This document shows, piece after piece, positions 8,340 through 21,934 of a stretch of DNA of 33,508 nucleotides. Below the pieces are notes generated by a model. It did not search any database and was not told the DNA's origin. It saw only the letters and a program-made list of their open reading frames with translations. Position 1 is the stretch's first letter. Every line of letters begins with the position of its first letter. The DNA comes from Candidatus Nitrotoga sp. HW29. Its GTDB lineage: Bacteria; Pseudomonadota; Gammaproteobacteria; Burkholderiales; Gallionellaceae. The stretch is from assembly GCF_924101635.2 (NCBI RefSeq), contig NZ_CAKMAA020000080.1, positions 1 to 33,508 on the forward strand. The letters run 5' to 3'. The position numbers were made by a program, and so were the translations under genes.

Positions 8340-10508
8340 TTAATTAATTTGCTTGGCATCACGATGTGCTAAAAAATCTGCCTGCTGCAATTTAACCAGT
8401 GCTTGAATATCTTTCTCGACAGGCTGATACAGAGGACGGATCTTACGCACGACGATATTGTTCGCGCCTTTCACATCATCCGCACGCAAAGCAACGATGA
8501 CGGGTTTCAGGGCTTCATTAACAAATCTGTTTCGATTAGCAGCAAATTTCTCCGCTAATGTTCTTTCAGCGGGCGTGAGGTTGTTCGCCATGTAGGCCTT
8601 CCAGGTTTGTTCTATTTCTGCAATATTATCTTCAACCTGTGCCGTATTATGGCTAATCACTTCAGGCGTCGGTGTTACCAGAGTAGACGCGACTGCGAGC
8701 CGGTTTTCCAATAGTAATACTTCAATATGCGCCACCTGTTCGAGCGGAATCGTACGATCCTGCTGGGAAATTTTCAGACCTTGCTCGGTCTTGCTCATGC
8801 CGACAATCAATAGCGGCAGAGCACACAGCATCCCAAACAGGAGCGCCAGCTGAACTCGTCCGAACCCATTGACAATGAGCGGGCCTCTGACATGGATCAA
8901 TTCTTCTTCAACGGGTTCATATCCTTTGCTGACTTTTCTGCCCGCAAGGGGGTGATTGGAGAAAGGCTGGAATCGGTCGAAACCCTTCACGATGACTGTA
9001 CCGCCCGTGTGCGTGTAGTCTTCTTCAAAGTGTTTGAGGAATTCCATGAAACTATGGTCAACCAGTTTGGCCTTGGAAAAATCCAGTTCTATTTTTTTTC
9101 CGGTTTTTAATTGGCTAAACGCATTTTTAAAACCCATCAGGTTGGAGAATATAGCAGCGCCCTGAATGGTTAAATGATATTCATCTGCTTTTTCTTTCAA
9201 GGTGTAACGCGCCTTGAACATGCTACGCAGAGGCGCGCCATTAGCAATATGGATGACAAATTTGGCCAGGATGCCTGAGGCGATTCCTATCAGTAGATCA
9301 GTCGCGATAGTTGCGGCAATGGTGATTAAAAAGACCACTAATTGTTCACTTCCAATTTTATAGGTTTTGTGGAACAACGAGGGCGAGGCGAGTACGTAAC
9401 CCACAAATATCAACATGGCTGCCAGCGCGGCGTTGGGAATCATTTCAATCACAGGGATCATCAGGAGCATGGCAACCAACAAGAAAAAGCCATGGAAGAA
9501 ATTGGCCCAGATGGTACGGCCACCAAAGCGTACATTGGCTGAGCTACGTGCGACTTCAGATATCATCGGGAGCCCACCCAATATTCCTGAAACGACATTG
9601 CCTGCCCCAACGGCAGCCAGATCTTTGTTGAAATCCGATTGCCGCTTCCAGGGGTCGAGTCCGTCAATTGCTTTGACAGTCAGCAAGGATTCCAAGCTAC
9701 CGACAGCCAGGAGCATGAAGACATATTTCCAGAACACAAAAGTGGTAATGGCGGAGAAATCGGGGTTATATCCGACTGAAGCCCAAAAATCACCAATATG
9801 AACAAGGGCATGAGCAGGTTGTGTAGTGTTAAAGTTCAGCATGAACGCCGCTGGAATGGCGATAAACAGCACGATCATGGGGGCTGGAATTTTTTTCAAG
9901 AAATTGATTTTTATTTTCGGCATACCGAATAAAATAATCAAACTGATTATGCCAATGATGGCAACCGGTTGATTAGCGTGCATGACAGAGTCGGGAATGC
10001 GTTCCAAAAGTCCAATGGGATCCAGGCCTTTCAACGTAGACGGGTCAATTCCCAGCAGAATATGGATTTGTTTGGAAAAGATGATGATTCCAATGGCCGC
10101 CAGCATGCCGTGCACAGCCGAGTGCGGTATGAAATCACTGAGTGAACCGGCTTTCAAGAAACCTAGAATGATTTGAAGCCAGGAAGCAACGACAATGACA
10201 CCCAGAGCGAGGTGCCATCCTTCCGGGCCACCGCCCAGCTCGGTGACACACCCCGCACAGATGGTAATTAAGCCCGCGGCGGGGCCTTTGATGGTAAGAC
10301 GTGAACCGGCAAAAAAACTGACAAACAAACCTCCAATCATGGCGGTGAGCACGCCCATCGCAGGCGGAAATTCACTGGCTTTCGCGATGCCTAAACTGAG
10401 CGGTAACGCAAGCAGGAAGACTAAAAATCCGGAAATAAAGTCTGATCTGAAGTTTTCCCTTAATCCTGCCACACCCTCTTTGGGAAGAGATGATTGTATG
10501 GAACTCAT
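8340..10508 (-). CDS. SulP-family anion (probably bicarbonate) transporter with STAS and C-terminal 4HB sensor domain
   Basis: Inner-membrane SulP transporter of 722 residues; ordinary SulP proteins have about 500-600. Residues about 20-430 are the transport domain, recognised from FLVFLLALPLSLGIAKASE and FFAGSRLTIKGPAAGLITI. Residues about 445-515 form a cytoplasmic STAS domain (KIELDFSKAKLVDHSFMEFL). After it comes one extra hydrophobic helix (about 552-571) and a roughly 150-residue helical region matching the four-helix-bundle ligand-binding domain of methyl-accepting chemotaxis proteins: DRTIPLEQVAHIEVLLLENR, WKAYMANNLTPAERTLAEKF and RKIRPLYQPVEKDIQALVKL. The protein ends where a chemoreceptor would have its second membrane helix. 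Its place beside dabAB suggests bicarbonate as substrate; sulfate or another anion remains possible. A GGAGC ribosome-binding site precedes the ATG. Confidence 0.92.
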   Translation of the reverse strand: MSSIQSSLPKEGVAGLRENFRSDFISGFLVFLLALPLSLGIAKASEFPPAMGVLTAMIGGLFVSFFAGSRLTIKGPAAGLITICAGCVTELGGGPEGWHLALGVIVVASWLQIILGFLKAGSLSDFIPHSAVHGMLAAIGIIIFSKQIHILLGIDPSTLKGLDPIGLLERIPDSVMHANQPVAIIGIISLIILFGMPKIKINFLKKIPAPMIVLFIAIPAAFMLNFNTTQPAHALVHIGDFWASVGYNPDFSAITTFVFWKYVFMLLAVGSLESLLTVKAIDGLDPWKRQSDFNKDLAAVGAGNVVSGILGGLPMISEVARSSANVRFGGRTIWANFFHGFFLLVAMLLMIPVIEMIPNAALAAMLIFVGYVLASPSLFHKTYKIGSEQLVVFLITIAATIATDLLIGIASGILAKFVIHIANGAPLRSMFKARYTLKEKADEYHLTIQGAAIFSNLMGFKNAFSQLKTGKKIELDFSKAKLVDHSFMEFLKHFEEDYTHTGGTVIVKGFDRFQPFSNHPLAGRKVSKGYEPVEEELIHVRGPLIVNGFGRVQLALLFGMLCALPLLIVGMSKTEQGLKISQQDRTIPLEQVAHIEVLLLENRLAVASTLVTPTPEVISHNTAQVEDNIAEIEQTWKAYMANNLTPAERTLAEKFAANRNRFVNEALKPVIVALRADDVKGANNIVVRKIRPLYQPVEKDIQALVKLQQADFLAHRDAKQIN

Positions 10509-10873: not shown

Positions 10874-12754
10874 TTAAGAAGATCTGCTCGGATGTGCGTG
10901 ATACGTTTTAATATGAGGCCCCAGAAAGATACGCGCGTATATCCTGATAAGTGAAAGTCCAGAAATGACGTAACTTAAGGCAGCGAGAAAGACCAGGCTA
11001 GCCTGATCTTCATGAATGTGAGTAAATATAAGCTCTACGCCAATAAATGTTGGCGTCATTGGGAATGCCATCAGACCTAAACAAGCTAACAAAAAAATAA
11101 AAGCTAATTTAGGATACTCATAAGTGTGACCTTGAAACTGATCTAGAGTGATCTTGTGTTCGTGAGATTTGAGTTCATTCAGGCAAGCGTAGCCCAAGAC
11201 CCCTGAAATAATTACGCCACTTAAATACAAAATAATTTCATTGGTTTTTATATCGCCATTTAACGAAATGGCAAGAGGCCTATACAGGTGCATAACGATG
11301 ACTAAAATCCAACTTAGCAGAGCATCTTTTCTTTCTGCAAATGATTTGAGCAACATCAGCAAACCGATAAATGCAAAAATTTCAGGCAAGTATAGGTATA
11401 CTTCTTTTGGTATTAATTCTTCATTGAACAAGCAGATCAAACCTATAGAATAGGTCGCAATCACAAAAATAATAACTTCTTTTCCTGAGAAAAAATTTAA
11501 TTTTCTACCGCCCCATTTTAATGGGTTCCATAAGAAACGATATACAAAGCTATCCAGATTGAATTCTTTAAGACATAACAAATAAATTGAGTACTCTATT
11601 TTTTTAAGAACTGAATTTCTATCAATGTAATGACGTGGAATAAAATGATAGAACTGCTCGCGAATCATATAGCTTACGACCGAAGGTGAAACCAATAGTT
11701 GATAGGTTCTTAAAAAAGCGTTCCCAGCAAAATGTATTAAAGCAAGGCCGTGAAAACCCAAGGCAACTTCAATAAAAATCAGTCCAATTTGTGCAATTGA
11801 GGAATAGGCTATTTGCGTTTTAACCGATGATTGAACTCGTGCAATTCCTGTGGCGACAATACTCGTCAACAGGCCTAAACATATGATTGTTATTACTATA
11901 GAAGTAATGTGTTCCCAAAAAGGAAATGTTCTTAATAACAGAAATACACCCAGATGAACCGAAAGTGATCCATAAAAAATTGCACTGGATGGAGTAGGAC
12001 CTTCCATTGCTCTTGGAACCCAGGAAGAGAAAGGAAGTTGGCCTGATTTTACCGCGGCAGCAAGTAATACCATCAGCGAAATAAGTACCCCAAGGAGAGG
12101 GTGATTTTGGAGATGCTCGCTAATAAATTGTTTATCGGTTAATTCTGAAAAGCTAATATTTTTACGCCATAAATAATGATTCATCCACATGACAATGAGT
12201 AAGCTCATATCGGCAATACGAAATACCGTAAAAACCTTGAGTGCATTTTTTATAGGCAAATACCGATCTCTATAAAATCCAATCAATAAAAACGAAGAGA
12301 AACCAAGTATCTCCCAGCCTACAAACAGGGTCTCAAAATTCCCTGAAAATATTATTATGTTGTAGCCAATATAAAAGAACAGAATGATGTTAAAAAATCG
12401 CTTGTAACCATTTTCTCGATGAAGATACCACCGGCAATATTGCGTCACCAGAAATGTGAGGGCCGAACCCACAAAAAGGTAAACAGCACTGATTTTATCA
12501 AAATAAAAAGAAACCAAAAACTGGTATTCTTTTGTTTTAAAAAGAATAATTTCACTTCTATCAAGCGTTGGGTGATTATAGAATAGCCATATACCAAGGA
12601 ATACCCAAGAAATAACTAAATGCAAACCCACGGTAATAAGAACAGTCCGTGAGACAGCGTTTTCCATTTTATCCGGGATAAACAGACTAAAAATAAACCC
12701 CACAAATGGTATGAGTATAAAAAATTGAAGTAGTGATGTAAGCAGCAAAGTCAT
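10874..12754 (-). CDS. dabB: DabB, ion-translocating membrane subunit of the DAB inorganic-carbon pump
   Basis: NuoL/MrpA-like membrane protein of 626 residues with many hydrophobic helices. The proton-channel features of the family are visible: the glutamate in LFVGWEILGFSSFLLIGFY, and the lysine in AVKSGQLPFSSWVPRAMEGP followed by TPSSA. Alone it could be read as NADH dehydrogenase subunit 5 or an antiporter subunit. Its position 9 bases after the DabA coding region identifies it as DabB, which is thought to couple cation flux to DabA-mediated hydration of CO2 to bicarbonate. It is AT-rich compared with the housekeeping genes to its left. Confidence 0.93.
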   Translation of the reverse strand: MTLLLTSLLQFFILIPFVGFIFSLFIPDKMENAVSRTVLITVGLHLVISWVFLGIWLFYNHPTLDRSEIILFKTKEYQFLVSFYFDKISAVYLFVGSALTFLVTQYCRWYLHRENGYKRFFNIILFFYIGYNIIIFSGNFETLFVGWEILGFSSFLLIGFYRDRYLPIKNALKVFTVFRIADMSLLIVMWMNHYLWRKNISFSELTDKQFISEHLQNHPLLGVLISLMVLLAAAVKSGQLPFSSWVPRAMEGPTPSSAIFYGSLSVHLGVFLLLRTFPFWEHITSIVITIICLGLLTSIVATGIARVQSSVKTQIAYSSIAQIGLIFIEVALGFHGLALIHFAGNAFLRTYQLLVSPSVVSYMIREQFYHFIPRHYIDRNSVLKKIEYSIYLLCLKEFNLDSFVYRFLWNPLKWGGRKLNFFSGKEVIIFVIATYSIGLICLFNEELIPKEVYLYLPEIFAFIGLLMLLKSFAERKDALLSWILVIVMHLYRPLAISLNGDIKTNEIILYLSGVIISGVLGYACLNELKSHEHKITLDQFQGHTYEYPKLAFIFLLACLGLMAFPMTPTFIGVELIFTHIHEDQASLVFLAALSYVISGLSLIRIYARIFLGPHIKTYHAHPSRSS

Positions 12755-12763
12755 ATTGAAACC

Positions 12764-13078
12764 TTAATTCATTAGGTAGACCGGCAAATTCTCTTTGGTA
12801 GCTTCAACGATATGGAGTGATTCTGCTGCTTTAACTGACTCAATTAAAGTAATGGCATCTGAAATAGAGCCAAGAGTTCTGGTTAATGGACGATAAAGAG
12901 AGAAACCCCCATCTTTAAATAAAGAAATCTCGCGCGTCTCTGGATTGACTGCAACTAGTCGAACCCACTCATTCAAATAAAATTCATAATTTTCTGGTAG
13001 CTGACTGATTGCTCGTAATACAATTTTCAGGAAAATGTTCCACAATAACCAAGAGACGGATAGGATCATGAACTTCAA
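12764..13078 (-). CDS. dabA: Displaced C-terminus of DabA (out of frame with the main dabA ORF)
   Basis: This 104-codon frame is best read not as a separate gene but as the end of dabA. From about residue 19 on (IVLRAISQLPENYEFYLNEW, then VRLVAVNPETREISLF) it has the sequence expected for the DabA/DUF2309 C-terminus, continuing the main frame's LLVIVEHFPE. Its first 18 codons merely overlap dabA in another frame and there is no ribosome-binding site at its ATG. The change of frame lies around 13021-13031, in the bases CCTGAAAATTG on the minus strand. Removing one base or adding two restores an 844-845-residue DabA. The open frame ends 9 bases before dabB. Confidence 0.8.
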   Translation of the reverse strand: MKFMILSVSWLLWNIFLKIVLRAISQLPENYEFYLNEWVRLVAVNPETREISLFKDGGFSLYRPLTRTLGSISDAITLIESVKAAESLHIVEATKENLPVYLMN

Positions 13079-15299
13079 TCATCTGGCTTGGGAGACCTGA
13101 TCTTAAATCACCATCACTACCGTTAGCCACACCAATCAGTCCCATAACATTATGGGGAAGCTTGGTTCCCGCACCTAATTTGTAATTGTCAACCCGCGAG
13201 AAAAAATATTCGAGACTGATCCCTCCCATAACCGGTGCAATCGGTTTCATAACATGAAATAGATATTTGCCTTCAGGGTCTATTCTGTAATCGTAAGAAC
13301 TCATAGACGACCGTCTGTCCAAATAAATATCCTTTGATAAAGTTCGCCTGCCGACGAAACAACTTGCGTTGGTTGAATGATTAAGTTCTTGTCGGGGTTC
13401 GAATAATGAAACCGATCTTTTAAGAATTTCTCTATGGATTTTTTTGGCGCTCAAATTAGTATCAATTGACACCAATCTTCTCGATCTTTCTTTTGAATTT
13501 AAATCCAAGGCCTTAACAAAAACGGGGGTGTTTTTTTTGTGATTTGCCGAATTCACAGCAGAAAGTAAATTCTCATCAAAATAAGTAATCTCATCGCGCG
13601 TCGTATCATGAAGGGCGCCCAGGAATTGCGTTTCTACGGGAATAACTAACCCTCTTGAACTCAACAATGCTCTAACTTCAGGGTGATTAGCCATCACGCA
13701 AAACACTCTTGCATTAACCGAACCGGGTCTACCGCCACAAGCTCCACAGTCATAGGCACAATAATGAGGATTATTAATACTGGTGGCACCATGTCCAACA
13801 ACATAGACAATTGAGGCAAAGTCTTTAATGAGCCCAATACTGGTTAAAATTGTTTCTACTCTTTGAGCCATCTCCTCAATTGTGAATCCCACCTGTAAGT
13901 CGTTTTCTCTGTGGCCCGTATTCTTGTTTTCAATCGTAAGGTTCGAAAGCTTATCCATATGGGCTACTGGCGAAGCCATGGCGGGCATCGAAGAAGGACT
14001 GAAAATATTCAGGGCCAGTTTAAATCCTGACAATAATCCTAGTGTTTGAGTAACGAGCCAGCCTCGAAAAAGAGAATGAGATACTTTAGAAAAATAGGCT
14101 TCTTTCTTCCTCTTTTTTTTGGTTTCTGTTTCCTTGATTAAATATTTTGGTGTAACGGGCGCAGGGCAACATTTGGTATAGAATTTTCCGTGCTCAGGCT
14201 GAAAATAGAATTCAACGCCAAAGAATCCAGGTGTAGCAAAAGTTTCACATTCGGAGTCAATTCTTTCAAGGTAACGACGGAAGGAAAGCTCTCTATCATC
14301 GATACATGTGAACACCTGAAAGCTTTTGTGAAAGGGTACTGTTTCATCCTTCTTTTTTTGCAATTGAATAGCGGCAAGCACCGGGTCATAGTAAGACCAT
14401 TCAAAAGCTTCTTGCCAAATTGAAAGGACTTCATCCAACTCTGTATTAGGAACATCGTCAAAAAGCGCTACCGGTCTGTTTTTTAAATTGCTGCCCATTG
14501 GCAACCAATCTTCTTCAAATTGGACGTCGAGTGCATCAATCTCTAACAAGAGCTCAAAAACGATTAAGTCGTGAATGGATATTTTTTTGGGATTCAACAA
14601 AGATTGCGGTTGATCTTCAACAGTGGACACCATACCCGACCAACCTTGATGCGCAAATTGCTGATCATATAAATATTGCTTATAAAGCGATTTGTCACCA
14701 ACCAGAATTTTTAATAAATCTTCAATTTTACAATTGCCTTTGAGAAGAAGTTCTTTAGCTCTTCTTCTTTTAAAGAAACTTGTAAAACTATTTGCTTCTA
14801 TTTCTCTCATTGAAGAAAGAAAGCCTTTATGCCCAACAGGGAAACCCCATATTGAAATTCCCTGGTCAAGATAACTGCAAAGAATTCTGAAAAGCAGTGG
14901 ATGTACGAATAAATCCAAATCTATGCGGTATTGCTCTTTCCAATTTAATCGCAATAAACCGATTCTTGATGAAATAGAAGTGTCATATTTCTTGCCAAGC
15001 GCATTTTTCATCCATTCATTTACATGCTCTGAACCCTTTCTTTCAGCAATAATTCTTTTTAGAATGTCTTCACGGATACGTGTCGATATATAAAGCAATC
15101 TATAATCTTCTAATTGAAGAGAAACACAATAACCAAATATTTTGGATGCACGACGTATACCATCATGGAATTTAAGATGCTGAAATGCATGTAACGTGTT
15201 GTGATGAATAAAATCTTTTAGCGGGGCCTGACTTGGCAAATAGTGCTTCAACTCATGAAGGACTTCTTGTTCATTAAAAATAGAATTATTTGAATTCAT
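12984..15299 (-). CDS. dabA: DabA, carbonic-anhydrase-like subunit of the DAB inorganic-carbon pump (frameshifted near 3' end)
   Basis: DUF2309 protein that, with DabB, converts CO2 to bicarbonate in an energy-driven, one-way manner at the membrane. The beta-carbonic-anhydrase-like zinc site is intact: C332 and D334 in FTCIDDRE, H503 in VVGHGA and C518 in YDCGACGG; the H-to-C spacing of 15 matches characterised DabA. The N-terminus (LKDFIHHNTLHAFQH) is also typical. The open frame ends early after VIVEHFPENCI; the true C-terminus lies in the next frame down to 12764. This may be a sequencing error, a natural frameshift or a pseudogene; the zinc site is upstream of it. The ribosome-binding site is weak (GAGCTT). 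The long leader holds a promoter and palindrome shared with the RND operon. Confidence 0.92.
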   Translation of the reverse strand: MNSNNSIFNEQEVLHELKHYLPSQAPLKDFIHHNTLHAFQHLKFHDGIRRASKIFGYCVSLQLEDYRLLYISTRIREDILKRIIAERKGSEHVNEWMKNALGKKYDTSISSRIGLLRLNWKEQYRIDLDLFVHPLLFRILCSYLDQGISIWGFPVGHKGFLSSMREIEANSFTSFFKRRRAKELLLKGNCKIEDLLKILVGDKSLYKQYLYDQQFAHQGWSGMVSTVEDQPQSLLNPKKISIHDLIVFELLLEIDALDVQFEEDWLPMGSNLKNRPVALFDDVPNTELDEVLSIWQEAFEWSYYDPVLAAIQLQKKKDETVPFHKSFQVFTCIDDRELSFRRYLERIDSECETFATPGFFGVEFYFQPEHGKFYTKCCPAPVTPKYLIKETETKKKRKKEAYFSKVSHSLFRGWLVTQTLGLLSGFKLALNIFSPSSMPAMASPVAHMDKLSNLTIENKNTGHRENDLQVGFTIEEMAQRVETILTSIGLIKDFASIVYVVGHGATSINNPHYCAYDCGACGGRPGSVNARVFCVMANHPEVRALLSSRGLVIPVETQFLGALHDTTRDEITYFDENLLSAVNSANHKKNTPVFVKALDLNSKERSRRLVSIDTNLSAKKIHREILKRSVSLFEPRQELNHSTNASCFVGRRTLSKDIYLDRRSSMSSYDYRIDPEGKYLFHVMKPIAPVMGGISLEYFFSRVDNYKLGAGTKLPHNVMGLIGVANGSDGDLRSGLPSQMIEVHDPIRLLVIVEHFPENCITSNQSATRKL

Positions 15300-16209: not shown

Positions 16210-17658
16210 CTACTCCCACCCTCCACCCAAGGATTTATAAAGATCCACCATTGCGTCAATTTGTTTTTGTTTCGTTTCAATTAAATCTTTTTTGGCATCC
16301 AAGGTATCCCTCTGTGCCAATAGCACATCCAGGTAGTCCACACGGGCAGATTTAAATAACTGGTTAGCGACATCAATTGATCGGGCGAGCGCTTCTACCT
16401 GGCTTGACTTAAGCTGATAGTTTTTGTCGAGATTATCGATGTTTGAAATTTGATTCACTACTTCGGTATAAGCTTTGATAATGCTTTGCTCATACTCATA
16501 AGCTGCCTGAATCTGTCTGGCATTGGCGTTTTTATATTGCGCTATGATGGCATTCTTATTGATCAGTGGCGCCACTAACTCTCCGGCAACAGTAGCCGCC
16601 AATGACTCCGGGGTATTGATCAGGTACTTAAGTGCAAAAGCTTCAAACCCTATTCCGGCGTTTATGCTAAAGGAGGGATAGAAATTTGCCTTAGCCACCT
16701 TTATATTTAATGCCGCTGCCGATAGCTCAAGCTCAGCTTGCCTAATATCAGGCCTGTTTTGTAGTAATTGTGACGGAATACCTGTCTTAAGCACTTTGGG
16801 TTCGAACTCCATAAAGCCACTAGAAACACGCTGGATAGGCTGCGACGTTCTCCCTAACAAAAAATTAATCCGGTTTTCAACAACAACGATATGCTGCTTT
16901 AGTTCGTATACTTTGCTTTTGTTTTTTGCCACTTCTGCTTCATAACGCCTGACAGCAAGTGCAGTTGTTCTTGCATAAAACAAAAGTTGCTTGACCATCT
17001 CCAAACCATTTTGCTGGATACTAATATTTTGCTCTAAATTCTTAAGCTGGTTATCCAAGGCAAGCAATTCATAATACGAATGGGCAACTTCAGCGACCAG
17101 ATTAGTCACTAAAAAGTTTTTGCCTTCTTTTGACGCCATATACTCAAGAACAGCGATTTGTTTCGCATTTCTCAATTTTTTCCATACATCTATCTCCCAG
17201 GTTGAAAATAACCCAAAGTGATAATCGCCCAGATATCTAGGGAAGGCTCGGCCATGGGCTATTGGCAGATTTTCTTCAACAGCGCCATTGCGCGTAAACT
17301 GGCCCTTTTTGTCCCCGCCTACACCGGCACCAATATTTACAAATGGCAAATATTCGCCTCTACGCGCTTGAATTTCATTCTGTGCAACACTAATGCGCTG
17401 CATCATGATATTAATTTCTTTATTGTTAACAACAGCTATGTCTATCAAACTTAATAAATCGGGATCATCGAAAAAATCTTTCCATTTAATACTTGCCGTA
17501 TTGGTTTGTTCCGAATCACCCGCTTTATAACCGGCAGGAAGATGTGTATCTTCTTTTTTGATAACTAACTCAGGCGTAGCACAGGCTTGCAACATCAGCG
17601 CCACCACGCCTAAAGCCATAAACTGAAATGTTTTAGTGTTCGTTGTCATTTGGGCCAT
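16210..17658 (-). CDS. Outer-membrane efflux lipoprotein (TolC/OprM/NodT family)
   Basis: Outer-membrane channel of a tripartite RND pump, 482 residues, near the usual OprM-type length. A signal peptide ends in a lipobox LMLQAC with the modified cysteine at C26, followed by ATPELVIKKEDTHLPAGYK, typical of NodT-type proteins. The repeated helical coiled-coil segments of the periplasmic barrel are visible (IAVVNNKEINIMMQRISVAQ and LLQNRPDIRQAELELSAA). The start at 17658 overlaps the pump gene by 26 bases; M4 (17649) and M14 are alternative starts. It is the last gene of the operon. Confidence 0.93.
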   Translation of the reverse strand: MAQMTTNTKTFQFMALGVVALMLQACATPELVIKKEDTHLPAGYKAGDSEQTNTASIKWKDFFDDPDLLSLIDIAVVNNKEINIMMQRISVAQNEIQARRGEYLPFVNIGAGVGGDKKGQFTRNGAVEENLPIAHGRAFPRYLGDYHFGLFSTWEIDVWKKLRNAKQIAVLEYMASKEGKNFLVTNLVAEVAHSYYELLALDNQLKNLEQNISIQQNGLEMVKQLLFYARTTALAVRRYEAEVAKNKSKVYELKQHIVVVENRINFLLGRTSQPIQRVSSGFMEFEPKVLKTGIPSQLLQNRPDIRQAELELSAAALNIKVAKANFYPSFSINAGIGFEAFALKYLINTPESLAATVAGELVAPLINKNAIIAQYKNANARQIQAAYEYEQSIIKAYTEVVNQISNIDNLDKNYQLKSSQVEALARSIDVANQLFKSARVDYLDVLLAQRDTLDAKKDLIETKQKQIDAMVDLYKSLGGGWE

Positions 17659-20600
17659 AGTGATAAGTTTCGGTTAAAGGATCCAAGTCTTCATGTTGAA
17701 TTAATTTTTTGCCTTCTATCATTTTGGCGAAAATATAATAAAGCCCTGGAATAATAATGACTCCAAACACCGTACCGAAAAGCATTCCACCCAACGCTGA
17801 GGTACCAATTGTTCTGTTGCCGACTGCTCCCGCCCCCGTTGCCATCGCTAAAGGTACCAGTCCGGCTATAAAGGCAAAAGAAGTCATCAAAATCGGACGG
17901 AAACGCTCTTTTGCACCCGCAATTGCCGCTTCTAAAACAGTCATGCCTTGAATTTGCTTCTGGGTTGCAAATTCGACAATCAATACCGCATTTTTGCCAA
18001 GCAAACCAATTAGCATCACCATTCCCAATTGGGAATAAACATCATTGGCAAGCCCTAATCCTTTTAACAATAAGAACGCACCAAAAATACCAGGCGGCAG
18101 CGAACATAGCACGACCAATGGCAACACAAAACTTTCATATTGCGCGGCTAACACCAGGTAGACAAACATGATAACGATCGCGAAAATCAGCAATGCTTCA
18201 TTACCCCGAAGAGCCTCATCAAATGACAAACCTTCCCACGCAACGTCAAACCCCTGTGGCAAAGTGGCCTTCGCAACCTCTTCAACTGCTTTGATGGCCG
18301 CACCAGTGGTATAACCCGCCGCAGGCTCGGCGCGGATCGCCGCCGAGTTATACAGGTTATAACGTGTGATTTCGTTAGGCCCCTGCTTTTTCACCATAGT
18401 CATGAAGGCAGAGTACGGCACCATTTCGTCTTTATCGTTTTTCACAAAATATTTCAACACATCCTCAGGGGAACGCCGGAATTCCGGCAGGGCCTGGGCA
18501 TAGACCTTAAAGAAGTTATTGAAACGAATAAAGCCCTGTTCATAGGTACTGCCGATCATGATGTCCAAGTGATTCATCGCTTTTTCGATGCTAACCCCTT
18601 TTTGCATGGCCAATTTATTGTCGATGACCAACTCGTATTGCGGATAATTGGCCGCATAAAATGTAAACAAGCCGGTCAGTTCCTTACGTTTACGCATCGC
18701 ATCCATAAACGCTTGGTTAATTTTATCGAACTCAAAATAATCCGTGTCTAATGTCTTGTCCAATAAGCGAAACGCCAAACCCGATGCTGCTCCGTATCCT
18801 GGCACTGCCGGAGGTTGAAAAAACTCGATGACTGCGCCCAAGTTATGAGCTTTTTCCTCCAGCTGGTGAATAATACTTTGTACCGAATTTTTACGTTGCG
18901 ACCAATCTTTCAGGTTAATAATACTGGTTCCTGCATTCGATCCACGGCCTTCGGTGAGTATTTCGTAACCGGCTAAAGAAGAAACCGATTGCACCCCTTC
19001 GATTTTTGCTGCGATCCCTTCCAGCTGCTGTGCCACTCTGTTGGTCACTTCGATGGTCGAGCCGGGTGGTGTTTGGATAATCGCATAAATCATTCCTTGG
19101 TCTTCACCGGGAATAAAGCCCTCAGGCAAGGTTTTATCGATCACAAAAATGCCAAAGCTAAATCCGGCCAACACCAAAACCGTAACGATGCGTCGAGTCA
19201 CTGTGACATTCAGCAATTTTATGTAGCGTCCGGTGATCTTTTCGAAAATAAAGTTAAAACCATCGATGAAAAGACTGATTGGATTTTTCCGTTTCGGCTG
19301 GCCGTGAGTGTTTGTAAGTATCATGGCACACAGTACCGGAGCCAACGATAAAGCCACCACTGCCGAAATAATGATCGACGACGCCATCGCGATAGCGAAC
19401 TGTCGATAAAACACCCCAACCGGCCCTGGCATAAACGCAATAGGGATGAACACCGACACCATGACCAATGTAATCGCGATAATGGCACCACCGATTTCTC
19501 CCAACACTTTTCGAGATGCCTGATAGGGACTGCAATTCTCGGCTGCCATTTTTGCATGCACAGCTTCTACCACCACAATGGCATCATCAACCACAATACC
19601 GATAGCCAACACTAAGGCAAACAAAGTGATAAGGTTAATGGAAAGCCCGAACGCAGACATAACGGCGAATGCACCGACCAGCGAAACCGGTACCGCCAGA
19701 ACCGGGATCAAGGTAGAGCGCCAGTCGCCAAGGAAAATAAAGACCACCAAGGAGACTAATATGAAGGCTTCAACCAAGGTATGCAGCACTTTTTCGATAG
19801 ATGCATCAACAAAACGCGACACATCATAATTAATTTCGTATTCCATGCCCTCCGGGAAGGACTTTTGCATTTCCGCCAGCTTTTCCTTTACATTCTTTAT
19901 GACCGTTTGGGCATTCGTACCGTAATTTTGCTTAAGCACGATGGACGCCGAAGGGTACCCGTCTTTATCGGAGAAAATATTATAAAACTCGCTGTTTAGA
20001 TCGACCATGGCGACATCTTTAATGCGCAGAAGCTCGCCTGACGGGGTAGACCGGATAATAATATCTCCATATTCCTCCGGCTTGGTGAAACGCCCTTTAT
20101 AGACCAATACATACTCTTTAGATTGGGCGGACATACCTGTGCTTTGCCCCAGTCGACCCGGACGTCCGATAATACTTTGTTTCCCGATGGCCTCCATCAC
20201 CTCTTCTGACGAGACGCTATAAGCCCGCATCCGTTCCGGATTCAGCCAAATCCGCATCGCATATTGGCGGGCACCCAATATAGTTGCCTGAGCAATTCCA
20301 GTAATTCGCTGAATTTCCGGAATAACATTGACGTAAGCATAATTAAACAGAAGCTTTTGATCGGCGTTTTTGTCTTTGCTGAAGAGGTTGACATACATGA
20401 GCATGCTGGGCTGAACGAAGTTCACGATCACGCCTTCCAACTGCACCAGTATGGGCAATCTGCTCATCATCTGATCCACGCGTGTCTTCACATTAACCAT
20501 CGCGATATTGGGATCGACACCTAAATTGAAATACACCTGAATGGTCGCTTCACCAGCGCTGGTCGCATCCGAAGTAATGTATTTCATACCGGGCACGCCA

Positions 20601-20809
20601 TTGATAGCGCGTTCTAACATAATCAGCGACGATTTCACTAACACATCGGCGCTGGAACCGGGAAACGATATCGAAACCGTAACCCGTGGCGGTGCAATAT
20701 CTGGAAACTGGGAAACGGGCAATGATTTCATTGCTACAAATCCCATGAACAGGAACATCAGCGATAGCACGACCGCCATCACAGGTCGCTTGAGAAAAAT
20801 TTTAAACAT
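17633..20809 (-). CDS. RND efflux permease (HAE1 family)
   Basis: Inner-membrane drug/proton antiporter of 1058 residues, standard for the AcrB/HAE1 family. The N-terminus (FKIFLKRPVMAVVLSLMFLF) and SQFPDIAPPRVTVSISFPG are typical. The proton-relay aspartates are D408 and D409 in LAIGIVVDDAIVVVEAV, and the matching lysine is in MLIGLLGKNAVLIVEFA. The aspartates indicate the hydrophobic-amphiphilic class rather than a heavy-metal pump. Substrates cannot be predicted. It starts 21 bases after the adaptor gene and overlaps the channel gene. Confidence 0.96.
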   Translation of the reverse strand: MFKIFLKRPVMAVVLSLMFLFMGFVAMKSLPVSQFPDIAPPRVTVSISFPGSSADVLVKSSLIMLERAINGVPGMKYITSDATSAGEATIQVYFNLGVDPNIAMVNVKTRVDQMMSRLPILVQLEGVIVNFVQPSMLMYVNLFSKDKNADQKLLFNYAYVNVIPEIQRITGIAQATILGARQYAMRIWLNPERMRAYSVSSEEVMEAIGKQSIIGRPGRLGQSTGMSAQSKEYVLVYKGRFTKPEEYGDIIIRSTPSGELLRIKDVAMVDLNSEFYNIFSDKDGYPSASIVLKQNYGTNAQTVIKNVKEKLAEMQKSFPEGMEYEINYDVSRFVDASIEKVLHTLVEAFILVSLVVFIFLGDWRSTLIPVLAVPVSLVGAFAVMSAFGLSINLITLFALVLAIGIVVDDAIVVVEAVHAKMAAENCSPYQASRKVLGEIGGAIIAITLVMVSVFIPIAFMPGPVGVFYRQFAIAMASSIIISAVVALSLAPVLCAMILTNTHGQPKRKNPISLFIDGFNFIFEKITGRYIKLLNVTVTRRIVTVLVLAGFSFGIFVIDKTLPEGFIPGEDQGMIYAIIQTPPGSTIEVTNRVAQQLEGIAAKIEGVQSVSSLAGYEILTEGRGSNAGTSIINLKDWSQRKNSVQSIIHQLEEKAHNLGAVIEFFQPPAVPGYGAASGLAFRLLDKTLDTDYFEFDKINQAFMDAMRKRKELTGLFTFYAANYPQYELVIDNKLAMQKGVSIEKAMNHLDIMIGSTYEQGFIRFNNFFKVYAQALPEFRRSPEDVLKYFVKNDKDEMVPYSAFMTMVKKQGPNEITRYNLYNSAAIRAEPAAGYTTGAAIKAVEEVAKATLPQGFDVAWEGLSFDEALRGNEALLIFAIVIMFVYLVLAAQYESFVLPLVVLCSLPPGIFGAFLLLKGLGLANDVYSQLGMVMLIGLLGKNAVLIVEFATQKQIQGMTVLEAAIAGAKERFRPILMTSFAFIAGLVPLAMATGAGAVGNRTIGTSALGGMLFGTVFGVIIIPGLYYIFAKMIEGKKLIQHEDLDPLTETYHYGPNDNEH

Positions 20810-20830
20810 GATTTAATCCTGACTGAAAGG

Positions 20831-21934
20831 TTACTCTGTATGCAATTTATTCAACTCTGAGCGAACCTTTTGGGGTGGCCTTAAATCGATCTGAACCTTT
20901 TCTCCAGGATGAACTTTACGTATACCTTCGAGCAAAATCCTGTCAGTCTCCTTCAGACCATCTTTAACAATAAACAACTGTGGCAATTCGGCCTCTACAT
21001 GAATCAGCCTTTGCTCCACTTTGTCTTCTTTATTGATGACATAGACATAGGTCTTATCCATGATTTCGAACGTTGCTTTTTGGGGAATGAGCATGGCCTT
21101 GGGGTAAAGCTTGGCCAATAGAATTGTTCCTGTCTCACCATGCCTGAGAATTTTTTCCGGATTAGCGAACAAAGCACGGAACTGAATATTACCGGAGCTA
21201 TTATGAAAATCACCTACAATTGCCTCAATGACTCCCTTTTGATTAAAAATCTCGCCATCGGCCATTCTCAGCTGCACTTCTTCACCGATTTTATCTTTTT
21301 TTTGCGTCTTAAAATTCAGGTATTGGGCTTCCGGGACATTGAAATAGACCCATAATTGGCTGACGTCAGACAATGTCGTCAACACCGCACCCTCATCGAG
21401 AAGACTGCCGATCCTAACAGCCAAATGATCCATAATCCCTTCAAAAGGTGCTTTGATATCGGTGAATCCCAAACGGGTTTCCGCCATTTTCACTTCCGCC
21501 TTAGCCTTATCTAATTTTGCTTTTGCCAAAGCCAATTCATTGGGCGATACAATATTTTCATCAGCCAAACCTTTGGTATTAAGGTATTCGATGTTCGTGT
21601 TTTGCGCTTCGGCTTGCGCTTTTAGAAGTTCTGCCTGATAAATATTGGGCATAATTTTGAACATGGGCTGCCCCTTTTTTATCAATTGCCCCTCATCCAC
21701 AAAAATACTCTGTAAGTAACCTTTTTCCAAAGAGCGTACCTCAATATGCCTAATTGCCTGAATCTGACAGACATAGTCTTTCATGATAGAAGTATCTTCA
21801 CGGAGCGGTGTAGTTGCCGCATATTTTGAGGCCGCTTCATGTGCCCCATGTGCCTCAGTGTCTGCCTTAGTATGGCATCCACTCAGTAATAAGGCGGCAA
21901 TTAAGCCTAGCGCTACGGGTAATTTAGTCATCAT
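20831..21934 (-). CDS. RND periplasmic adaptor lipoprotein (membrane-fusion protein)
   Basis: Links the RND pump to its outer-membrane channel. The 367-residue precursor has a lipobox LLLSGC with C20 as the lipidated residue. Then come a lipoyl-like half (IEVRSLEKGYLQSIFVDEGQ, LIKKGQPMFKI), an alpha hairpin (about 105-155), the second lipoyl half (FTDIKAPFEGIMD) and beta-barrel/membrane-proximal domains. The ATGATG start allows residue 1 or 2. It is first in the three-gene operon, which contains no regulator of its own; control probably comes from the promoter and palindrome shared with dabAB. Confidence 0.94.
   Translation of the reverse strand: MMTKLPVALGLIAALLLSGCHTKADTEAHGAHEAASKYAATTPLREDTSIMKDYVCQIQAIRHIEVRSLEKGYLQSIFVDEGQLIKKGQPMFKIMPNIYQAELLKAQAEAQNTNIEYLNTKGLADENIVSPNELALAKAKLDKAKAEVKMAETRLGFTDIKAPFEGIMDHLAVRIGSLLDEGAVLTTLSDVSQLWVYFNVPEAQYLNFKTQKKDKIGEEVQLRMADGEIFNQKGVIEAIVGDFHNSSGNIQFRALFANPEKILRHGETGTILLAKLYPKAMLIPQKATFEIMDKTYVYVINKEDKVEQRLIHVEAELPQLFIVKDGLKETDRILLEGIRKVHPGEKVQIDLRPPQKVRSELNKLHTE

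Follow-up and report, generated by a model that had tools for sequence, protein, structure and literature searches.

A SulP-type anion transporter encoded with dabA and dabB in Candidatus Nitrotoga ends in a receptor-type four-helix bundle

SulP/SLC26 proteins are dimers, and regulation of these anion transporters is usually thought to be cytoplasmic, acting through the STAS domain. In full length, BicA and SLC26Dg are not known to have an extra transmembrane (TM) helix or a periplasmic C-terminal domain. In receptors with a four-helix bundle (4HB, or TarH) domain, excerpts of PMC10735184 describe the attractant signal of Tar as helix 4 sliding into TM2 and state that, when ligand binds to MCP2201, helix 1 moves like a piston and dimerization changes. 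Here we describe a protein that joins a SulP transporter to such a bundle in Candidatus Nitrotoga, which excerpts of PMC10734462 present as a nitrite-oxidizer genus in the Gallionellaceae. Our searches of openly licensed papers turned up no account of a SulP that carries a TarH or 4HB domain, in agreement with the original prediction, made from the sequence alone, which knew of no SulP of this kind. Both domain families are known, and the SulP-4HB architecture is new and is conserved in part of one genus.

The gene lies in the window, by which we mean the whole analyzed stretch of 33,508 nucleotides from Candidatus Nitrotoga sp. HW29. The following features of the gene were recognized.

8340..10508, minus strand: sulP-4HB fusion gene, 722 amino acids (open reading frame, Pfam, full-length orthologs)
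9321..10451, minus strand: SulP transmembrane domain, PF00916, residues 20-396 (Pfam, 192 bits)
8934..9209, minus strand: STAS-like domain, residues 434-525, expected to be cytoplasmic (AlphaFold secondary structure and alignment with SLC26Dg; Pfam STAS models below cut-off)
8850..8933, minus strand: variable linker, residues 526-553, with a largely conserved GPLIVNGFG (alignment)
8796..8849, minus strand: additional membrane helix corresponding to TM1 of receptors, residues 554-571 (Kyte-Doolittle, AlphaFold, alignment with receptor-type proteins)
8346..8744, minus strand: four-helix bundle TarH/4HB domain, residues 589-721 (Pfam, AlphaFold, purifying selection)

The original prediction had read the end of this protein (window 8343-8873, minus strand; residues 546-722 of the reading frame at 8340-10508) as one more membrane helix and a chemoreceptor-type 4HB domain behind SulP and STAS, and that order was borne out by Pfam (PF00916, PF02203, and PF12729) and by STAS-like secondary structure in the AlphaFold model. 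The transporter part matched Sulfate_transp (PF00916) with the above score against a cut-off of 23. Residues 546-722 taken alone exceeded the cut-off of the family that had been proposed, 4HB_MCP_1 (PF12729; E = 7.1e-18, 65.2 bits versus 27), but their best family was TarH (PF02203; E = 5.3e-30, 105.1 bits, cut-off 25.2); within the whole 722-residue protein, TarH was found at 554-710 (99.9 bits) and 4HB_MCP_1 at 568-709 (61.3 bits). Across the window's genome, PF12729 was above its cut-off in five places, four of which covered the full profile, the fifth being the fusion (profile positions 27-168). The STAS region is divergent, with a top STAS-type Pfam score of 14 bits, below cut-off; strands and helices alternate over residues 434-525 in the AlphaFold model, as in STAS, and the alignment of the fusion SulP with SLC26Dg reaches residue 510, within this region.

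The closest solved relatives by sequence are 6ki1 (BicA) and 5da0 (SLC26Dg). The fusion shares its transmembrane fold with both, and its STAS-like region resembles that of SLC26Dg (the 6ki1 chain comprises the TM domain only). None of the NCBIfam SulP models was at cut-off (126.7 bits versus 880 for the BicA equivalog NF050096), and on such sequence scores the fusion SulP is a BicA homolog, not an equivalog. A Foldseek search with the fusion model placed SLC26Dg and AtSULTR4;1 on top, with BicA also in the list; the best 50 of 766 matches were transporter folds and do not address the 4HB on its own. No solved 4HB relative that could serve as a pocket template was found by sequence search.

Folding of the full protein, as had been proposed, yielded the extra helix (551-573 in the AlphaFold model, 554-571 by Kyte-Doolittle) followed by helices at 589-611, 615-640, 646-675, and 679-721. 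Three loci were left out of the folding alignment A1, namely, L051, L055 (a stop at the chosen coordinates), and L056 (dropped with L055). Mean pLDDT per block was 79-93 over residues 591-700 and 76 over 701-710, and it fell below 50 at the extreme end. It was also below 50 over the linker and TM stretch (527-587), and hence the model does not predict where the bundle sits with respect to the transporter. The linker is variable, with 8 of the 23 positions from 526 to 548 invariant among the nine fusion sequences described below. The flanks of the extra helix have no clear charge bias and do not fix the topology; by logic only, a single helix after a cytoplasmic STAS domain would place the 4HB in the periplasm. 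The protein ends just before the hydrophobic stretch that forms TM2 in receptors (alignment, by eye), as had been read from the sequence. It thus shares TM1 and the four-helix bundle with 4HB/TarH chemoreceptors and sensor histidine kinases but is joined behind a transporter and lacks TM2; no Pfam match to an MCP signaling, HAMP, HisKA, or HATPase_c domain was found in its 722 residues. Lacking TM2 and HAMP, the fusion cannot use the known receptor mechanism in its usual form, a consequence that the original prediction left out of account. A promoter and terminator scan gave scores under the shuffled mean for both.

Full-length fusions were found at nine places in seven genomes among the matches listed from 158 family genomes, all in the genus of the window. 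The carriers, 7 of 19 Candidatus Nitrotoga genomes, are the window's own (G000), G095 and G103 with two copies each, G096, G108, G109, and G110; the eight other proteins are 81-95% identical to that of the window, and none of the nine reading frames has an internal stop. Restriction to one genus could be taken to favor a join that arose by chance or in assembly and that has no function. We consider this barely credible: the nine intact copies, together with the fact that two carriers (G095 and G103) are single-contig genomes, rule out the artificial joining that the original prediction had named as one way to refute it, and dN/dS values far below 1 (Nei-Gojobori) rule out a pseudogene tail. 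The joined 4HB part is real and is kept by selection. Beyond the family, no fusion was seen in 399 genomes sampled from the order (E<=1e-46 was reached in 25, at most two candidates scored per genome, so that others could escape), in 369 genomes sampled from the class (34 at E<=1e-60, at most three candidates per genome, with the same reservation), or in 72,556 plasmid records (73 matched, none covering 80% of the query). Among 28 loci that were read, 17 had a longest frame of >640 amino acids, and the 10 of these run against Pfam contained no TarH and one carbonic anhydrase.

Between the window's gene and the eight other fusions, dN/dS was 0.07-0.16 for the 4HB (seven unsaturated comparisons), 0.05-0.13 for the STAS region (all eight), and 0.04-0.06 for the TM core (seven); four of the comparisons with N. 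fabula, for the 4HB and the core, had saturated dS. Some other pairs had higher 4HB values (0.24 for BS-M5 and 0.28 for the two G095 copies). Among five species compared for both domains, 9 of 10 pairs gave a lower dN/dS for the fused 4HB than for a native receptor-type one, and only the window's own species with M5 went the other way (0.160 versus 0.112); the native set consisted of the histidine kinase L001 and its presumed orthologs L109, L112, L115, and L140, the last of which is long-branched and of uncertain orthology. Judged by these substitution patterns, the fused 4HB is under purifying selection. Helix 1 is the most conserved helix of the bundle: 19 of its 24 positions do not vary among five fused sequences, compared with 11 of 24 among five native ones; helix 4 has 24 of 34 versus 18 of 34, and helix 3 of the fused domain has 20 of 30. 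With so small a sample, the contrast between fused and native helices is only suggestive.

This pattern bears on whether the 4HB might be purely structural and sense no ligand, serving to lock the transporter dimer or to dock it to partners, DabAB for example. The dimeric state of SulP/SLC26 proteins, the loss of the canonical signal path with TM2, and the prominence of helix 1 would all suit such a role, although the conservation of helices 3 and 4 goes beyond the apparent need of a pure dimer surface, and we regard a structural 4HB as rather unlikely. For MCP2201, excerpts of PMC10735184 describe a dimer interface in which helix 1 takes part.

The fused 4HB is 44-58% identical to 41 receptor-type 4HBs of the family (among the matches listed), so the predicted kinship with receptors holds, but "chemoreceptor type" is too narrow a label for a domain type that chemoreceptors share with sensor histidine kinases. 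The receptor-type proteins L001, L035, and L036 align with the fusion from TM1 to helix 4, with TM1 poorly conserved except for its GMSK end. Pfam assigned the four other 4HB proteins of the window's genome to sensor histidine kinases with PAS domains (L001, L002, and L003) and to one chemoreceptor with an MCPsignal match (L004); L034, L035, and L173 from other genera are likewise chemoreceptors, and the sequence of L036 ends ahead of its effector end. The idea that the native relatives are all chemoreceptors is ruled out by the kinase domains of L001, L002, and L003 among these eight relatives. Since both kinds occur among the relatives, the donor of the fused 4HB may, from its sequence, be either a chemoreceptor or a sensor histidine kinase.

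In a tree of 50 4HB sequences, the nine fused domains form one clade (100/100 support) on a long stem (0.79), with 15 of 47 inner branches under 80. The 41 receptor-type rows (25 from Nitrotoga) comprise 35 from the matches listed and six others, most of them represented by about 1 kb of sequence each with the effector end out of view; L004 is absent, having no BLAST match at 1e-5. A search with the 4HB alone gave matches at E<=1e-38 in 5 of 399 genomes of the order (the window's own, one other Nitrotoga genome, and three of families f15 and f16). This distribution is consistent with a donor from the Gallionellaceae or a group close to them, and another donor is possible.

The kinases also raise the prospect of a cosensor, in which pairing of its 4HB with that of a native histidine kinase (or chemoreceptor) would let the transporter report the state of transport to that protein. 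The window's genome offers three kinases whose 4HBs are 46-54% identical to the fused domain; mixed 4HB dimers are not known to be typical, however, and the long branch between fused and receptor-type domains speaks against pairing, and we consider a cosensor quite unlikely. Cosensing by a transporter and a kinase is known from DctA and DcuS (excerpts of PMC4280142 and PMC8307970).

Two further genes of the window precede the fusion gene on the same strand.

10874..12754, minus strand: dabB, upstream partner, 626 amino acids (Proton_antipo_M, 127 bits, by Pfam; same gene order in six other fusion genomes)
12984..15299, minus strand: dabA, at the head of the operon (Pfam match to PF10070, 671 bits; frame break near codon 758 in the window's assembly)

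DabA and DabB are encoded by adjacent genes in the window, and the order dabA-dabB-sulP on one strand recurs in all seven fusion genomes. The original prediction had asked whether the architecture tracks with dabAB, and it does: all 7 fusion genomes, and none of the 12 other Nitrotoga genomes, contain a DabA of the window's type. Among those 12, a distant DabA (35-38% identity) occurs in seven, and the remaining five have none at E<=1e-30, three of the five being less than 90% complete. The fusions group in the SulP tree as a single clade (SH-aLRT 97) distinct from 14 Bacteroidota rows. Inner branching is the same for SulP and DabA (near-duplicates L044, L046, and L051 omitted from both trees): N. 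fabula is outermost, BS goes with M5, and the window's own species goes with G095 and G103. This agrees with vertical inheritance of the two genes together. The fusion is probably a DabAB-linked anion transporter, for which the gene neighbors suggest bicarbonate as the substrate. Within dabA (window 12767-15299), residues 1-758 and 756-844 of an 844-residue ortholog match in two different frames, reflecting a real frameshift or an assembly error. An RND efflux operon (HlyD-type adaptor, AcrB-type permease, and NodT-type outer-membrane channel; window 16210-21934) adjoins dabAB.

SulP relatives elsewhere differ in what follows STAS. At 17 Bacteroidota loci, the SulP part is 54-71% identical to the fusion; seven of these SulPs (523-534 amino acids) stop after STAS, and 10 (730-738 amino acids) bear a different C-terminal domain of about 200 amino acids. 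The dabA-dabB-sulP order and strand are kept at six of the 17 (L041, L045, L046, L047, L054, and L056, the last with a split dabB), seven others have dabA or dabAB arranged differently, L055 has a dabB fragment, and L048, L052, and L057 have neither gene on the stretch read. Within the same order as the window, the SulP of G452 (71% identity over 527 amino acids) has the dabA-dabB-sulP order and stops right after STAS, as does that of G395 (66% identity), with no dabAB on the 17.8 kb read. Thus, the dabAB-linked SulPs of the Bacteroidota and G452 often share the operon of the fusion yet end after STAS or, in the Bacteroidota, carry another domain, and none of the six Bacteroidota SulPs run against Pfam (of the 17 loci) had a TarH match. 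In Nitrotoga itself, three SulPs are fused to a C-terminal carbonic anhydrase (PF00484, about 129 bits) and lack any match to TarH.

L062, 1881-4037 and 5267-7423: SulP-carbonic anhydrase fusions, a pair within 6 kb in one genome (Pfam)
L063, 2662-4818: SulP-carbonic anhydrase fusion (Pfam)

These resemble the SulP-4HB protein in being C-terminal additions behind STAS but add an enzyme rather than a TarH/4HB domain. The SulPs compared thus end after STAS or continue into the Bacteroidota domain, a carbonic anhydrase, or a 4HB, so their C-terminus is a variable slot, in which the 4HB was seen only in Nitrotoga. The domain of about 200 amino acids (L041, 9576-10178, and nine similar Bacteroidota loci) is accompanied by dab genes on the stretch read in 8 of 10 cases; two examples tested alone had no Pfam match, and an AlphaFold model (mean pLDDT 84.5) gave a single Foldseek match at E<=0.001, to mycobacterial TtfA (6t84; E = 1.1e-4, TM score 0.69 by query length). 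In other orders of the class, six SulPs of 753-779 amino acids (L186, L187, L189, L190, L194, and L199) have a long C-terminal region without a Pfam domain.

In the two genomes with two fusions, the second copy is flanked on one side by the gene of a Crp-type regulator and on the other by TM_HPP, which is disrupted in G103.

L059, 7040-9196: second sulP-4HB copy in a single-contig Nitrotoga genome
L061, 7152-9308: second sulP-4HB copy in the other single-contig Nitrotoga genome

This copy lies not with dabAB but upstream of genes with Pfam molybdopterin oxidoreductase and 4Fe-4S matches, which we take, by recognition, to be nxrA-nxrB. Over their first 1.9-2.0 kb, the two copies of a genome differ at 0-3 per 100 nucleotides, whereas copies of G095 and G103 differ from each other at about 5 per 100; copies closer within than between genomes bear a mark of gene conversion, by which the sequences appear to be homogenized within each genome while the 4HB end escapes. 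Given where the second copy lies, a link of the substrate or signal to nitrite oxidation is conceivable. The transported anion could then be nitrite, nitrate, or another anion instead of bicarbonate, with the 4HB sensing an anion of nitrification, and a near-identical copy next to TM_HPP and upstream of putative nxrA-nxrB would agree with this, as would the periplasmic location predicted for Nitrotoga NXR (excerpts of PMC6050957). The recurrence of the dabAB linkage in Nitrotoga, G452, and the Bacteroidota argues the other way, and no SulP lies on the contig of the window's genome that carries the matching regulator, HPP remnant, and AraC genes (L174). We find this combined reading, another anion with a 4HB that senses it or a related one, distinctly unlikely.

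Tentatively, with a chance that we put just short of even, we hypothesize that the product of this gene, part of a dabA-dabB-sulP inorganic-carbon operon, is an anion transporter of the SulP/SLC26 type, with bicarbonate as its most likely substrate, which acquired a receptor TM1 and 4HB behind its STAS-like domain once, before the fusion-bearing species split, as a periplasmic module that influences transport. The added helix would place a 4HB on each subunit in the periplasm of the homodimer, where the two could pair as in receptors, and ligand binding or pairing would bias transport via helix 1, the added TM helix, and the linker that leads to STAS. With TM2 absent, helix 4 has no connection to the membrane, so a signal would have to pass through helix 1 and the TM helix or through pairing; the helix 1 piston and altered dimerization of MCP2201 make a helix 1 route possible in the fusion. 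A more specific version, possible but somewhat doubtful, is that the periplasmic 4HB binds a small anion (dissolved inorganic carbon, nitrite or nitrate, or an organic acid) and gates the DabAB-linked SulP through helix 1/TM1 and STAS without TM2, possibly also pairing with native 4HB histidine kinases so that one sensor would serve both transport and gene control.

That selection keeps a receptor domain, predicted to be periplasmic, on this transporter points to a widespread nitrite oxidizer whose carbon uptake could answer a signal from outside the cell. The fusion is also a natural chimera for asking whether a 4HB can signal through helix 1 alone. Further, the C-terminus of dabAB-linked SulPs is suggested to be a slot for modules, filled by nothing, by another domain, or by a 4HB, with carbonic anhydrase taking this place in other SulPs.
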